This document shows, one piece after another, positions 24,503-34,636 of a stretch of 47,862 nt of DNA; position 1 is the stretch's first letter; each line of letters opens with the position of its first letter. Under the pieces are notes generated by a model. That model ran no database searches. It was not told the DNA's origin and saw only the letters and a list, made by a program, of their open reading frames with translations. The stretch lies in contig RFGE01000056.1 of assembly GCA_003696105.1 (NCBI GenBank), positions 1-47,862 on the forward strand, given 5' to 3'. This DNA is from Deltaproteobacteria bacterium (GTDB lineage Bacteria; Myxococcota_A; Polyangia; Haliangiales; J016). A program made the translations under genes and the position numbers.

Positions 24503-27253
<2,751 letters not shown>

Positions 27254-27407: not shown

Positions 27408-29519
27408 TCACGGTGCCGGCGGCGCGCCCGGCGGTGCGAGCACGAGGTGAAGCGTTCGTTCGGGGCAGGCCGCTCCCGGGGCGGGCTGTTGCGCCACCAC
27501 CGTTCCGCTGCCCTCGACGGTCACGTCGAAGCCGGCGTCGCGCGCCGCGTCCAGCGCCGCCGCCAGCGGCAGGCCGACGAGTGCCGGCGCGCGGTCGCCG
27601 TCGCGTTCCCCCGCCGGCGCGCGCGCGTCGTCGGCGAACGGCAGGGCGGATTCGTCGGCCGGCTCGTCGTCGCCGGCGGACCCAACCCCACCGCGCTCCG
27701 AGGACGGCGGCGCCGCGCCGCGCTCCGATCCGGCCGCGTGGCGGCCTGCGGCCGCGCGGTCCTTCTCCTGGCCGCCGGTGCCCGGCACGCCGAGGTAGGC
27801 GAGCGTCTCGGTGACGATGCGAGCAAATGCCGGCCCGGCCACCTGGCCGCCGAAGTGGTGTTCGCCGCGGGGGTCGTCGATCACCACGACCACCGCGATC
27901 TTCGGGTCGTCGATCGGCGCGAGCCCGATGAACGACGACAGATACCGGTCCCGGCTGTAGCGGTGCGTTTGCGGGTCGAGCTTGTGCGCGGTGCCGGTCT
28001 TGCCGCCCGCGCGGAATCCCTCGACGCGCACGAACCTCGCCGTGCCGCCATCTTTGCCGCGGTCGAACACCGACGCGAGCATTGGCAGCAATGCCGCCGC
28101 CGTCTCGGGTCGCAGCACGCGGATCCCGGCCGGTTCGTGCTCGTACAGCACGCGGCCGTCCGCATCGCGGACCCGCCGCACGATCCGGGGCTCGTACAAC
28201 ACGCCGCCGTTGCCGACCGCGCCGAGCGCGGCGGCGACCTGCACCGGCGTCGCCGTCATCCCGTAACCGAACGCGTGCGTCGCCAGACCGATGTCGCCCC
28301 ACCGGTCCGGCGGCCGAATCACGCCGGACCGCTCGCCCGGCAGCTCGATGCCCGTCCGCGCTCCGAACCCGAACCGGCGCAGGGCCGCGTACAGCCTGTC
28401 GGCCCCGAGTCGTTGCGCGATCTTGACCGCGCCGACGTTGGACGAGTGCTTGATCACCCCCGCGACGGTGAGCGCGTCTTCCGGGTGCACGTCGCGAATC
28501 ACCTTGCGGCCGATCCGGTAGCGGCCGCCCTCGGTGTCGATCCACTGGTCGGGGCGCACCGCGCCGGCGTCGAGCGCGGCGCCGACCGTGAACACCTTCA
28601 TGATCGAGCCGAGCTCGTAGGCGTCGGTGACGGCCCGATTGCGCGCGCCGCGCCGCGCGGCCGCACGGCCGGCCGGGTCGTTCGGGTCGTACGTCGGCCA
28701 CGAGGCGAGTGCCAGCACCCGGCCCGTGTCGACCTCCGTGACCACGACCGTGCCGGCGGCGGCGCGATTCTCCGCGATCGCGTCGGCGAGCGCGCGCTCG
28801 GCCGCGTACTGCACGAACCGGTCGATCGTGAGCGTGACCGACGCGCCCGCGACCGGCTCGGCGTCGGCGTCGAGGTCGCCGGCGAGCATCGTGCGCCCGC
28901 GCGCGTCGCGCAGCACCGCGCGCCGCACGCGCCGCCCCCGCAGCAGGTCGTCGAGCGCGCGCTCGAGGCCGTCGAGGCCGCGGCCGTCGATGTCGGCGAA
29001 GCCGAGCACCGGCCCGGCGAGCTGCTTGAACGGGTAGTATCGGCGCGGCTCGCGCGCGAGCGCGATGCCCGGCAGGCCCGCGGCGCGCACGGCCGCGGCC
29101 TCCGCCGGAGACACGTGACGTTTGATCCACGTGAAGTACCGGTGCGACGACAGCTTGGCCTCGAGCGCGCGCACGTCGAGGCCGAGCGCCGCCGCCAGCG
29201 CCGCCGCGGTGCCGGCGACGTCCACGACCTGGCGCGGGTTGGCGTACACCGAATCGACGCCGGCGGTCACGGCCAACTCGGCGCCGGTCGCGTCGTAGAT
29301 GACGCCGCGCGGCGCCGGCACCTCCACCGTCCGCACGTGTTGCCGGCGCGCCGCCTCGCGGTAGCGCTCTCCGTCTATCACCTGGATGCCGTAGGCTTTG
29401 ACCGCGATGCCGGCCAGCCCGGCGGTGAGCAGCGCCGCCGCCGCGCACACGCGAACCCTCACCCACCGGCCGATGACCGGCTGGGCTTCGATCGAGCGGC
29501 GGCGGGTGTGCGCGTTCAC
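27408..29519 (-). CDS. ftsI: septal peptidoglycan transpeptidase FtsI (PBP3) with PASTA domain
   Basis: FtsI cross-links septal peptidoglycan. The 703-residue class B PBP has a membrane helix near 21-43, a dimerisation domain (PAPRGVIYDATG), and the transpeptidase domain with active Ser305 in SIMK (305-308), SSN (359-361) and KTGT (507-510). After residue about 580 comes a long Gly/Ala/acidic linker, then a C-terminal PASTA-like domain (about 645-695: LVGLPLAAALDAARDAGF, VVAQQPAPGA). PASTA is common in Gram-positive PBPs and also in myxobacterial FtsI. The GTG start overlaps the ftsL stop (GTGA). Confidence 0.95.
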   Translation of the reverse strand: MNAHTRRRSIEAQPVIGRWVRVRVCAAAALLTAGLAGIAVKAYGIQVIDGERYREAARRQHVRTVEVPAPRGVIYDATGAELAVTAGVDSVYANPRQVVDVAGTAAALAAALGLDVRALEAKLSSHRYFTWIKRHVSPAEAAAVRAAGLPGIALAREPRRYYPFKQLAGPVLGFADIDGRGLDGLERALDDLLRGRRVRRAVLRDARGRTMLAGDLDADAEPVAGASVTLTIDRFVQYAAERALADAIAENRAAAGTVVVTEVDTGRVLALASWPTYDPNDPAGRAAARRGARNRAVTDAYELGSIMKVFTVGAALDAGAVRPDQWIDTEGGRYRIGRKVIRDVHPEDALTVAGVIKHSSNVGAVKIAQRLGADRLYAALRRFGFGARTGIELPGERSGVIRPPDRWGDIGLATHAFGYGMTATPVQVAAALGAVGNGGVLYEPRIVRRVRDADGRVLYEHEPAGIRVLRPETAAALLPMLASVFDRGKDGGTARFVRVEGFRAGGKTGTAHKLDPQTHRYSRDRYLSSFIGLAPIDDPKIAVVVVIDDPRGEHHFGGQVAGPAFARIVTETLAYLGVPGTGGQEKDRAAAGRHAAGSERGAAPPSSERGGVGSAGDDEPADESALPFADDARAPAGERDGDRAPALVGLPLAAALDAARDAGFDVTVEGSGTVVAQQPAPGAACPERTLHLVLAPPGAPPAP

Positions 29520-29845
29520 TGGGCCGCAACGGTCGTGCCGGTCGCCGGCGCGACGCGAATCTGGGCCGGCGCCGGGCGGCGCATGCCGAGCGACAGGGCG
29601 CGCCGCTCGATGCGGTCCGGATGGCGCAGCATCGACCGCTCGAGCCGCAGCCGGCGGTTTTCCTCCTCGAGGCGCTGCAGCCGCGCGGTCTCGCGCGCCA
29701 GCTCGTAGCCGAGACGCACCATCTCGTGTTGGCGGCGGATGTGCGCGAGCGCCAGCGCGAGCGCGGCGGCCGCGACGATCAACATCGTGGCGACGGCGAC
29801 GCGGCGCGGCGCGGCGGGAGCAGGGGGTGTGCGGTGGGCGGCCAT
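29516..29845 (-). CDS. ftsL: cell division protein FtsL
   Basis: A 109-residue bitopic protein: short basic N terminus, one membrane helix (about 17-38), then a leucine-rich coiled coil (RLQRLEEENRRLRLERSML) and a short C-terminal tail. This layout, and the place between rsmH and ftsI, identify FtsL, which bridges FtsQ and FtsB to FtsW-FtsI. Sequence conservation in FtsL is low, so the call rests on layout and position. The start overlaps the rsmH stop (TGATG). Confidence 0.88.
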   Translation of the reverse strand: MAAHRTPPAPAAPRRVAVATMLIVAAAALALALAHIRRQHEMVRLGYELARETARLQRLEEENRRLRLERSMLRHPDRIERRALSLGMRRPAPAQIRVAPATGTTVAAQ

Positions 29846-30792
29846 CAGTCCTCTACCTTCTCGCACGCGCGCAGGCGGGCGGACCGAGCGCGCGGGTTGC
29901 GTGCGATCTCCGCGTCGGACGGCGCGATCGGTTTGCGCGTGACGCGGCGGCACACCGGTCGCGTGCGCTCGCCGGCTCGCGCCGCGAGATCCGGCGGCAG
30001 GCCAGACACGCTCTCCAACTCGCGGAAGCGCCGCTTGACCAGGCGGTCCTCCAGCGAGTGAAACGAGATGATCACGCAGCGGCCGCCCGGCGCGAGCCAC
30101 TCGGGAAATGCGGCGAGGAATCGCGCCAACTCCTCCAACTCGCGGTTGACCGCGATGCGCAGCGCCTGAAACGTGCGCGTCGCCGGGTGGATCCGCATGT
30201 GTCGCCGCGCCTTCGCCGGGATCGCGTCGGTGACGACCGCGGCGAGTTCAGCCGTGGTCGCCAGGTCGCCGGCGCGCGCGCGCTCCTTGATCACGGCGGC
30301 GATCCGCGCGCTGAACCGCTCCTCGCCCAGCTCGCGCAGCACGTCCGCGAGTTCGTCGCGAGTCAGCTGCCGGATCAGGTCGAGCGCGGTGTCGCCGCGC
30401 GTCGGATCCATGCGCATGTCGAGCGGGCCGTCGTGCGAGAACGAAAACCCGCGTTCGGCCGTGTCGAGCTGGTGGGACGACACGCCCAGGTCGAGCAGGA
30501 AGCCGTCGACCCGGTCGACGCCCAGCCGCCCCAGCACGTCGGCGATGTTGCCGAAACTATCGTGGACCAGCGTGACCCGCTCCCGGTACGGCGCGAGGCG
30601 CTCGCGGGCCGCCGCGAGCGCGTCCGGGTCGCGATCGACCGCGATCAGGCGGCCGTCGGGACCGGACGCGTCGAGGATGCGGACGGCGTGCCCCGCCCCG
30701 CCGACCGTGCCGTCCACGTAGGTGCGGCCCGGCGCGGGAGCCAACAGCGCGAGGGCCTCGTCGGCGAGGACGGTCTCGTGGCGGAACGACAC
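29845..30792 (-). CDS. rsmH: 16S rRNA (cytosine1402-N4)-methyltransferase
   Basis: RsmH (MraW) N4-methylates C1402 of 16S rRNA. The 315-residue protein starts HETVLADEALALL, then has the SAM-binding VDGTVGGAGHA, IAVDRDPDAL, FLLDLGVSSHQLD, FQALRIAVNREL and ISFHSLEDRLVK, all RsmH motifs. It is the first gene of the dcw cluster; no mraZ precedes it. The GTG start at 30792 gives the conserved N terminus; the frame is open further upstream, but I see no ATG and no homology there. A weak promoter candidate lies at 30830-30858. Confidence 0.95.
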   Translation of the reverse strand: MSFRHETVLADEALALLAPAPGRTYVDGTVGGAGHAVRILDASGPDGRLIAVDRDPDALAAARERLAPYRERVTLVHDSFGNIADVLGRLGVDRVDGFLLDLGVSSHQLDTAERGFSFSHDGPLDMRMDPTRGDTALDLIRQLTRDELADVLRELGEERFSARIAAVIKERARAGDLATTAELAAVVTDAIPAKARRHMRIHPATRTFQALRIAVNRELEELARFLAAFPEWLAPGGRCVIISFHSLEDRLVKRRFRELESVSGLPPDLAARAGERTRPVCRRVTRKPIAPSDAEIARNPRARSARLRACEKVED

Positions 30793-30829
30793 GTTTGTTC
30801 GGTTCGCGAGCGTGGAGGGTGCACCGAGC

Positions 30830-30858
30830 GTGTTACCGCCCCGTCGCGCGGTGGGCAA
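30830..30858 (-). promoter_or_regulatory. possible promoter of the dcw cluster
   Basis: On the minus strand: TTGCCC (30858-30853), a 17-base spacer, TAACAC (30835-30830). The leader would be about 31 bases. The -10 is poor, so this is only a candidate. Confidence 0.3.
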
Positions 30859-30970
30859 CTTTTTGCGGATTCCCGGGCGGTTGCAAGCGATCGCGGGGGC
30901 TGCGCGGCCCGGGCGATCCACAGGCGAGCCGAGGCCAGCGGATACAGCCCGGATCGAAAACTACACACTC

Positions 30971-30979
30971 TGTGGAAAA
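30971..30979 (-). promoter_or_regulatory. DnaA-box-like nonamer
   Basis: TGTGGAAAA, which is TTTTCCACA on the minus strand and fits the relaxed DnaA box TTWTNCACA. It is single, so it is not an origin; a chance match is possible. Confidence 0.3.
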
Positions 30980-31027
30980 ATTGAGCGATCACCTGAACGA
31001 CTGTTCTGTATTGAAAGGTACGCAGTC

Positions 31028-31056
31028 TTGACGAGTCGCCGCCATCACGCTAGAAT
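31028..31056 (+). promoter_or_regulatory. strong sigma-70-type promoter of the Fic gene
   Basis: TTGACG (31028-31033), exactly 17 bases, TAGAAT (31051-31056): the best sigma-70 match in the window. Start of transcription is expected near 31063, leaving a leader of about 30 bases with a GGGGGA ribosome-binding site. Confidence 0.7.
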
Positions 31057-31093
31057 CGCTCGATATTTATCGTCCAACTGGGGGACGCATCGC

Positions 31094-31906
31094 ATGCTTA
31101 GGTGGGAAGAGAAACAAGACATCGGAGAAACGTATCAGAAGGTCGAGGCGGCGGTCGCCGAGTGGCGGGAGCGCGAGCAGGAGGTACTGCCCGAAGTGCG
31201 CGACACGTTCCACGAAAAGCTGATCATTTCGTGGATCTTTCACGACAGCGCGCTCGAGGGCGAGGTGCTCACCTACAGCGAGATCAAGGCCGCGACCGAT
31301 CGCAACATCATCAGCGACGTCTCCCTGATCCCGGCCTACGAGGACATCAAGGCGTTCGACAGCGCGGCGCGCTTCGCGATCGACTACGCCGCGAGCCGCA
31401 AGAAGCCGATCAACCTCGACCTGGTGCGCGAGCTGCTCGCGCTGGTCGATCCGGCCGAAGGGGCGAAGGGCGCGCCGTACCGCAAGGAAAACCCCCTGCA
31501 CCGGCTCTACTACCACGAGATCGCGCCCCCGGAGAAGGTTCCGCAGCAGATGCGCAAGTTCGGCGAGTGGCTCGCGCAGATCCACAAGGCCGACGCGCAT
31601 CCGATCGCGCTGGCGGTCGCCGCGCACCGGCGGCTCATGGGCATCTTCCCGTGGCCGAAGGCGACCGGCCGTGTCGCGCGCATCCTGAGCAACCTGATCC
31701 TGCTTCGCCACGACTACCCGCTGGCCGTCATCCACTCGATCGATCGCCAGCGCTACTACGAGGCGTTGCGCACGGACGACGACAAGCTCGAGTTTTTGTA
31801 CCTCGAAGCGGTCGAGACCACCGCGACCGCGGCCACCCGCGTGTACGACGAGGCGATCGCCCGCGCGGCGCGCGCGACCTCCGGCCGCGGCCGCCGCGCC
31901 TCGTAG
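31094..31906 (+). CDS. Fic-domain protein with degenerate active-site motif
   Basis: A 270-residue Fic-fold protein. Upstream landmarks fit a class II Fic protein: [11 protein letters not shown] (residues 50-60) matches the usual SxxxEG inhibitory helix, [12 protein letters not shown] matches the flap, and the [11 protein letters not shown] helix leads into the core. The catalytic loop, normally HPFxDGNGRxxR, reads [12 protein letters not shown] (185-196): the catalytic His is Phe, the Asp/Glu is Lys and the Asn is Thr, while the Gly-Arg and final Arg remain. It is therefore unlikely to do standard AMP transfer. It has its own strong promoter and a GGGGGA site before the ATG. It precedes argH by 85 bases; a functional link is not evident. 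Confidence 0.8.
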
Positions 31907-31991: not shown

Positions 31992-33370
<1,379 letters not shown>

Positions 33371-33374
<4 letters not shown>

Positions 33375-34636
33375 ACCACTTCCGCTACGTCGGGGACGAT
33401 CTGTGGTGCGAGGACGTGCCGCTTTCGCGCATCGCCGGCGAGGTCGGCACGCCGACCTACGTCTACAGCAGCGCGACCCTCACGCGCCACTACCAGGTGT
33501 TCGACGCCGCGCTCGCGGGGCTCGACCACCTGATCTGCTATTCGGTCAAGGCGAACAGCAACCTCGCGGTGCTCAAGCTGCTGTTCGATCTCGGCGCCGG
33601 CGCCGACGTGGTGTCCGGCGGCGAGCTGTTTCGGGCGCTGCGCGCCGGCGTCGATCCGAGCAAGGTCGTGTTCTCGGGGGTCGGCAAGACCGAGCCCGAA
33701 ATCCGCATGGCGCTCGACGCCGGCATCCGCGCGTTCAACGTCGAGTCGCGCGACGAGCTGCACGCGATCGCGCGGGTCGCGGCCGCCGCCGGCGCGCGCG
33801 CGCCGGTCGCGCTGCGCGTCAACCCGGACGTCGACGCCGAGACGCATCCGTACATCTCGACGGGATTGCAGAAAAACAAGTTCGGCATCCCGATGCCGCG
33901 CGCGCGCGACGTCTACCGCGAGGCGCGCGATCTGCCGTCCATCGACATCGTGGGGATCGACTGCCACATCGGCTCGCAGCTCACCAAGACGTCCCCGTTC
34001 GCCGACGCGATCGCCCGCCTGCGCGAGCTGGTGGTCGCGCTGCGCGACGACGGCATCGCCATCCGATCGGTCGACATCGGCGGCGGCCTCGGCATCCCGT
34101 ACCGGGAGGAGACCGATCTGCCGTCGCCGGCCGACTACGGCGCCGCGGTCGCCGGCGCGCTCGCCCCGCTGGCCGACCTCGGCCTGACCGTGCTGTGCGA
34201 GCCGGGGCGGGTCATCGCCGGAAACGCCGGCGTGCTGCTCACCCGCGTCCTGTATCACAAGTCCACCGACGTCAAGAACTTCGTGATCGTGGACGCCGCG
34301 TTCAACGACCTGCTGCGCCCGGCGTTCTACGACGCCTACCACGCGATCAAGCCGGTTCGGCGGCGCGGGGACGCGGACACGTGGGTCGCGGACGTCGTCG
34401 GACCGATCTGCGAGACCGGCGATTTCCTCGCGCGCGACCGCTCGCTGCCGCGCACGCACAACGGCGACCTGCTCGCGGTGATGTCCGCTGGCGCTTACGG
34501 GTTCGTCATGGCGAGCAACTACAACTCGCGCCCGCGCGCCGCCGAGGTGCTGGTGCGCGGCGACCGCTTCGCGGTCGTGCGCGCCCGCGAGACGCTCGAG
34601 CAGCTCGTCGCCGGCGAGACGATCCCCGACTGGTAG
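33371..34636 (+). CDS. lysA: diaminopimelate decarboxylase
   Basis: LysA decarboxylates meso-DAP to L-lysine, a PLP enzyme of the alanine-racemase fold. The 421-residue protein has Lys60 in YSVKANSN (PLP Schiff base), [44 protein letters not shown] and the active-site cysteine in ICETGDFLA. The ATG overlaps the argH stop and sits behind a strong GGAGGG site. It competes with MurE for meso-DAP. It converges with the broken phosphatase gene, 14 bases apart. Confidence 0.97.

Follow-up and report, generated by a model that had tools for sequence, protein, structure and literature searches.

The fic locus and its neighbours

The window (the whole stretch of DNA analysed here, 47,862 nt) carries at 31094..31906 on the + strand an intact reading frame that translates into a Fic/Fido protein of 270 amino acids plus stop, which we call pseudo-Fic. 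A ribosome-site-like stretch (GGGGGA) lies upstream of the frame, as does a conserved sigma-70-like promoter (TTGACG-17-TAGAAT, 31028..31056, +), recognized by its sequence score and its conservation. The promoter scores 10 of 12. An earlier reading of the sequence alone had called it the best sigma-70 promoter of the window, which holds at the optimal 17-nt spacing, with two other sites reaching the same score of 10 at 18-nt spacing. Upstream of relatives, 57 of 119 regions score at least 9, against ∼ 7 expected from shuffles, and the promoter is kept in nearly all loci of the window's order.

The gene is divergent from the dcw (division and cell wall) cluster, which opens with rsmH (mraW; 29845..30921, −; Pfam Methyltransf_5, 376 bits), whose true start is probably ∼ 100 bases inside the open reading frame. 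It continues with an ftsL-like gene (29516..29848, −), ftsI, which encodes a PBP transpeptidase with PASTA (27408..29519, −), and a murE–murF fusion (24503..27253, −) that joins two Mur ligases in a single reading frame of 916 aa. Downstream and co-directional with pseudo-Fic lie argH (31992..33374, +), after a gap of 85 nt, and a gene for a lysA-like PLP decarboxylase (33359..34636, +).

Divergent adjacency of fic and rsmH, with a gap of 87–485 nt, was found in 47 genomes from six families (f1, f3, f4, f7, f10 and f18). The two genes are 6–12.6 kb apart and still divergent in seven more genomes. In six genomes of the other families f14, f25 and f32, finished or nearly so, they are far from each other. 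The downstream neighbours of fic vary (ribA, argH–lysA or a gene with an RF-1 domain). Since ribA (GTP cyclohydrolase II) follows fic both in the window's class (f10, f2) and in outgroups (f32, f40, f60), in 20 loci altogether, the fic–ribA linkage may be the older one. Loci with this order include L177, L178, L180, L185, L189, L190, L191, L202, L058, L061, L066, L067 and L142. A FicTA toxin–antitoxin module was considered and rejected: the gene's neighbours in the window are rsmH and argH, and a screen of ORFs of at least 70 aa found no small gene as cognate antitoxin among the conserved neighbours (rsmH, ribA, the RF-1-domain gene, argH and lysA).

Fold, catalytic loop and new invariant residues

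Pfam Fic matches residues 119–203 of the window protein with 44.1 bits (cut-off 24). Structural modelling, which the sequence-only reading had proposed as a check, gave a high-confidence Fic fold nearest to FICD: the AlphaFold2 model, built with 59 orthologues, has a pLDDT of 92 and a pTM of 0.89, and the top solved structures in Foldseek are FICD with MgATP (6i7k; E 4.6e-9, prob 1.00, TMq 0.76) and BT_2513 (3cuc). The Pfam match and the Foldseek probability of 1.00 to FICD together place the protein in the Fido superfamily. FICD is also the best sequence match to the family profile (E 2.9e-31). Matches to NCBIfam models are all far below threshold, and a viral fold search returned weak Fic matches only.

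The catalytic loop occupies residues 185–196 (31646..31681, +). Aligned to FICD, F185 corresponds to His363, K189 to Asp367, T191 to Asn369, G192 to Gly370, R193 to Arg371 and R196 to Arg374; in this numbering we take His363 to be the catalytic residue and Asp367 the Mg-binding one. The translation and the alignment thus bear out the replacements first noticed in the sequence (His to Phe, Asp/Glu to Lys and Asn to Thr), together with retention of the last Gly-Arg and of R196, and the Gly-Asn-Gly-Arg anion hole has become A-T-G-R. The window protein lacks the His, the Mg2+-binding Asp/Glu and the GNGR anion hole that define a catalytic Fic AMPylase and retains the last Arg; because it fails these features, we do not class it as a Fic AMPylase.

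The same loss runs through the family, in which motifs were counted over 162 distinct proteins. At the catalytic His position Phe occurs in 96, Tyr in 58, Trp in four, Leu in three and His in one, so that 158 proteins carry F/Y/W and 161 carry F/Y/W/L. The position of the Mg2+-binding acid is Lys in 75, Arg in 25, Glu in 21 and Asp in 10 (K/R 100 versus D/E 31; the remainder have other residues) and is mostly basic in the window's class. The Asn position is Ser in 125, Thr in 25 and Pro in eight. The second Gly, kept in 160/162, is the one element of the anion hole that is retained across the family; the Arg of the anion hole is Arg or Lys in most proteins, and the last Arg (R196; the γ-phosphate Arg of Fic AMPylases) is kept in all 162. 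None of the 162 has an intact HPFx(D/E)GNGR motif; a relative with one would have spoken against the earlier reading. The lone His is at locus L056 (G077:C309), where the loop reads HPFARHSGK (HPFARHSGKLAR) and the rest of the canonical motif is absent.

An inhibitory-helix-like motif, HDSALEG, is found at residues 50–56 (31241..31261, +). The family consensus is H(D/E)xALEG, and H50, D51, E55 and G56 hardly vary. E55 aligns to Glu234 of FICD, which we take to be its inhibitory Glu. This position is Glu in 156 and Asp in five of the 162 proteins, with one gap, and the following Gly is present in 161. The Ser/Thr of the (S/T)xxxE(G/N) motif, four residues before the Glu, is D51 in the window protein (Asp in 150 and Glu in 11 of the 162). 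The earlier description of the helix as well kept is therefore right for the Glu-Gly pair (E55, G56) but not for the Ser/Thr, which is an Asp and is itself conserved.

The flap (residues 130–141; 31481..31516, +), likewise described as well kept, is so within the family, but it is not canonical, being longer than that of FICD and having invariants of its own. R130, P134, H136, R137, Y139 and H141 are invariant in a 60-member alignment; in the window's class the consensus is YRK(E/D)NPLHRLY(Y/F)H(E/D), with the first five of these residues invariant and H141 nearly so. In f42 and f53 the flap has PxHRxY in common with the window's class but Gln at position 141, and in the f32-like group it reads RYRKRDTSPGVY and lacks H136, R137 and H141. 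A further segment, HSIDRQRYY (residues 214–222; 31733..31759, +), contributes H214, R218, Y221 and Y222, all invariant in the 60-member alignment. Across all groups H50, D/E51, E55, G56, R130, Y139, R196, R218 and Y221 are shared, exceptions being few. Of 20 invariant columns, 17 fall in the inhibitory helix, the flap, the catalytic loop and the 214–225 segment, which by homology line the cleft of known Fic structures.

The window protein ends in a short basic tail, GRGRRAS (31862..31903, +), and other members of its order end in KKRKRA. In f14 members the N-terminal tail is rich in Lys, Ala, Pro and Arg and resembles histone H1; in the 12 loci that were read, seven tails are long (∼ 170 to 500 residues) and five short (19–39 residues), and several of the long ones run on into a charged ER/K helix. 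Orthologues with such H1/AlgP-like basic N-tails are encoded at L213–L224 (f14 genomes) and also at L195 and L196.

Distribution, descent and selection

Matches were found in 94 of the 95 genomes of the window's class, and 93 of these were counted as orthologues, the weak and partial match in G071 being left out. The two genomes without a counted orthologue are 73% and 70% complete. Pseudo-Fic is kept even in G001, a 1.6-Mb genome of the window's family with an estimated completeness of 98%. Beyond the class, the occurrence of the family is patchy, with strong matches in f32, f42, f53, f51, f60 and f40.

In a maximum-likelihood tree of 75 family members and nine canonical Fic proteins of the same phylum, among them the one encoded in the window's own genome (contig C358, HPYLNGNGR), all 75 members fall on the same side of a branch with support of 99/95; some canonical branches are very long and the placement of those proteins is unsure. 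Sub-clades track host families and no plasmid record covering 80% of pseudo-Fic was found, so that a recent horizontal origin is not supported. Selection on close orthologues, a check that had also been proposed, is strongly purifying (pairwise dN/dS median 0.088, maximum 0.31; 46 pairs, several of which are the same genomes twice). Strong purifying selection and the single clade rule out recent decay. Together with the same loss in all relatives they support the earlier suggestion that the changes reflect selection for another role. Judged from the sequences, the family is ancient and vertically inherited, its centre having been replaced in a common ancestor and strictly preserved since. With decay set aside, a pseudo-enzyme and a protein with a different ligand or activity would both fit.

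Possible roles of pseudo-Fic

The closest relatives among known systems are FICD/HYPE and the single-domain class II Fic proteins (6i7k, 4u07; BT_2513, 3cuc), which share the N-terminal inhibitory helix with its Glu, the last Arg and the R-x-x-YY segment. Pseudo-Fic differs from FICD/HYPE in lacking the catalytic His, the Mg-binding Asp, the Asn and the TPR region and in its longer flap with its own invariants. The Bartonella effector BepC (HxFxKGNGRxxR) is instructive, since it also has Lys for the Mg-binding acid, a well-conserved non-canonical motif and a FIC domain that is non-catalytic; its Lys contacts the α- and β-phosphates in place of Mg2+ (PMC7842960). The window loop agrees with the BepC motif only at this Lys, at the aromatic residue two positions after the His, at the last Gly-Arg and at the final Arg. 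BepC, an injected FIC-OB-BID effector, has retained the His and GNGR, whereas pseudo-Fic has neither His nor Asn and is chromosomal, near housekeeping genes. In Doc clade D2 (Qx[F/Y]x[D/E][G/V]NKR; PMC4454073) the catalytic His is likewise replaced in nature throughout a clade, but, unlike in pseudo-Fic, the new residue is Gln and not aromatic, the remaining motif is retained and the proteins belong to the Doc subfamily. Fic surveys describe motif groups nearly all with His, plus this one small Gln clade (PMC4454073). A literature search, which did not extend to subscription papers, found no description of the pseudo-Fic motif or of its distribution; in the literature searched, the only His-less Fido proteins are AvrB and the Gln-type Doc clade D2, and the non-catalytic FIC domain is that of BepC. 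Almost every sampled member of one bacterial class keeps a Fic protein with a replaced catalytic centre and a new invariant surface, which makes pseudo-Fic a clean natural example of a Fido-fold pseudo-enzyme (or new enzyme), one whose link to cell-wall and division genes and to nucleic-acid-binding tails can be tested.

The interpretation that we prefer, and hold with moderate confidence, is that of an ancient, vertically inherited Myxococcota Fic-fold family that cannot use the standard Fic mechanism to transfer AMP and is maintained for a role in regulation that is probably non-catalytic. It is consistent with the family-wide loss of catalytic residues, with a single clade under purifying selection present in 93 of 95 genomes, and with a FICD-like fold whose invariant residues concentrate at the cleft. 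The gene's own conserved promoter, its adjacency to rsmH and the dcw cluster in 47 genomes, the H1-like N-tails of f14, the basic C-tails and the precedent of BepC, in which Lys for D/E replaces Mg2+, point the same way. With the catalytic base and the metal ligand gone and the phosphate-side Gly/Arg and the inhibitory Glu kept, AMP transfer would be lost, and the rewritten cleft may hold an anionic group without Mg2+, or a protein partner. By analogy with the equivalent Lys in the BepC crystal structure, Lys189 could take the place of Mg2+. The protein would then be a scaffold or regulator under ligand control, associated with nucleic acid via its basic tails and, in the window's order, working near the expression of cell-wall and division genes. 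Against this interpretation, the dcw linkage is confined to part of the class, and H136, R137 and H141 are not universal beyond it. A Fic domain combined with a nucleic-acid-binding element, as may be the case in the f14 proteins with their H1-like tails, is known from CccR and CbFic2 (PMC9755527, PMC10628234), although these have helix-turn-helix domains and are active AMPylases. We speculate that undecaprenyl (di)phosphate could be the ligand beside the cell-wall cluster; it is worth considering because the FicD cleft also takes isoprenoid diphosphates (PMC12974487).

A bolder version, which we consider unlikely, is that pseudo-Fic is a phylum-wide housekeeping protein whose cleft is a sensor for a cell-wall or nucleotide metabolite and which acts on nucleic acid, with an H1-like tail in one family and, in the window's order, a tie to dcw accompanied by loss of MraZ. 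If this version is true, pseudo-Fic would be the first such regulator on a Fic fold.

The conserved polar residues H50, D51, H136, R137, H141 and H214 may just as well mark a new active site. One possibility, which we take seriously without thinking it probable, is a working enzyme of other chemistry: the Fido scaffold would be reused, with these residues either moving a sugar or a different group off a nucleotide diphosphate donor or hydrolysing a phosphate ester. The concentration of invariant His, Asp, Arg and Tyr at the cleft favours it. So does AvrB, a Fido protein without the Fic motif that is a rhamnosyltransferase; it has Arg and Gly conserved at the phosphate site, where they contact the donor phosphates, and catalytically important Arg and Asp (PMC10866546). 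AvrB is, however, a plant-directed effector and far more distant in sequence, being absent from all pseudo-Fic match lists. The best, far sub-threshold, NCBIfam match of pseudo-Fic is the XopAC/AvrAC subfamily, a uridylyl transferase (PMC3739749). Against a new enzyme, H136, R137 and H141 are absent from the f32-like group and H141 is Gln in f42 and f53; since the flap residues are not universal, H50, D/E51, E55, R130, R196, R218 and Y221 are all that a new catalytic set could draw on family-wide. Nor was a glycosyltransferase sequence signature seen in pseudo-Fic.

It is improbable that pseudo-Fic is a dedicated dcw controller standing in for MraZ by position or by function. The mraZ gene, with which dcw usually begins, was not found at 30922–31093 of the window, in the window's genome or in the 35 searched genomes of its order. 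It is present in 26 of 90 genomes and missing from all 47 with fic–rsmH adjacency, and in G039 fic and rsmH are still separated by mraZ. The conservation of the fic promoter in the window's order would suit such a controller, and CccR, a Fic protein, is a DNA-binding regulator acting on FtsZ (PMC9755527). Perfect as the association with adjacency is, Fic is equally present in mraZ-positive families, so that deletion of an intervening mraZ suffices to explain the adjacency, and a replacement of MraZ by Fic need not be invoked. Moreover, mraZ is also absent from some families in which fic was not located close to rsmH, and a DNA-binding domain is not recognizable in the window protein.

That pseudo-Fic is a classical Fic AMPylase or kinase in spite of the loop changes is very improbable. 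In favour of it, fold, Gly and last Arg have stayed in place, and a His-to-Ala mutant of IbpA has residual activity (cited in PMC4454073), but in the window protein His, Asp/Glu, Gly and Asn are all replaced, as they almost always are across the family, and the acid position is mostly basic in the window's class. Decay of an ordinary Fic gene, for which the canonical copy on contig C358 makes redundancy conceivable, has next to no probability left: the orthologue motifs and the dN/dS of ∼ 0.09 refute it, alongside presence in 93/95 genomes, intact frames, a promoter that is conserved and a loss that every relative shares.

Of 155 family proteins, 36, spread over about nine families, end in -(R/A/C/K)AS after variable residues; in the window copy this ending lies at 31895–31903. 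It may be a binding or degradation signal.
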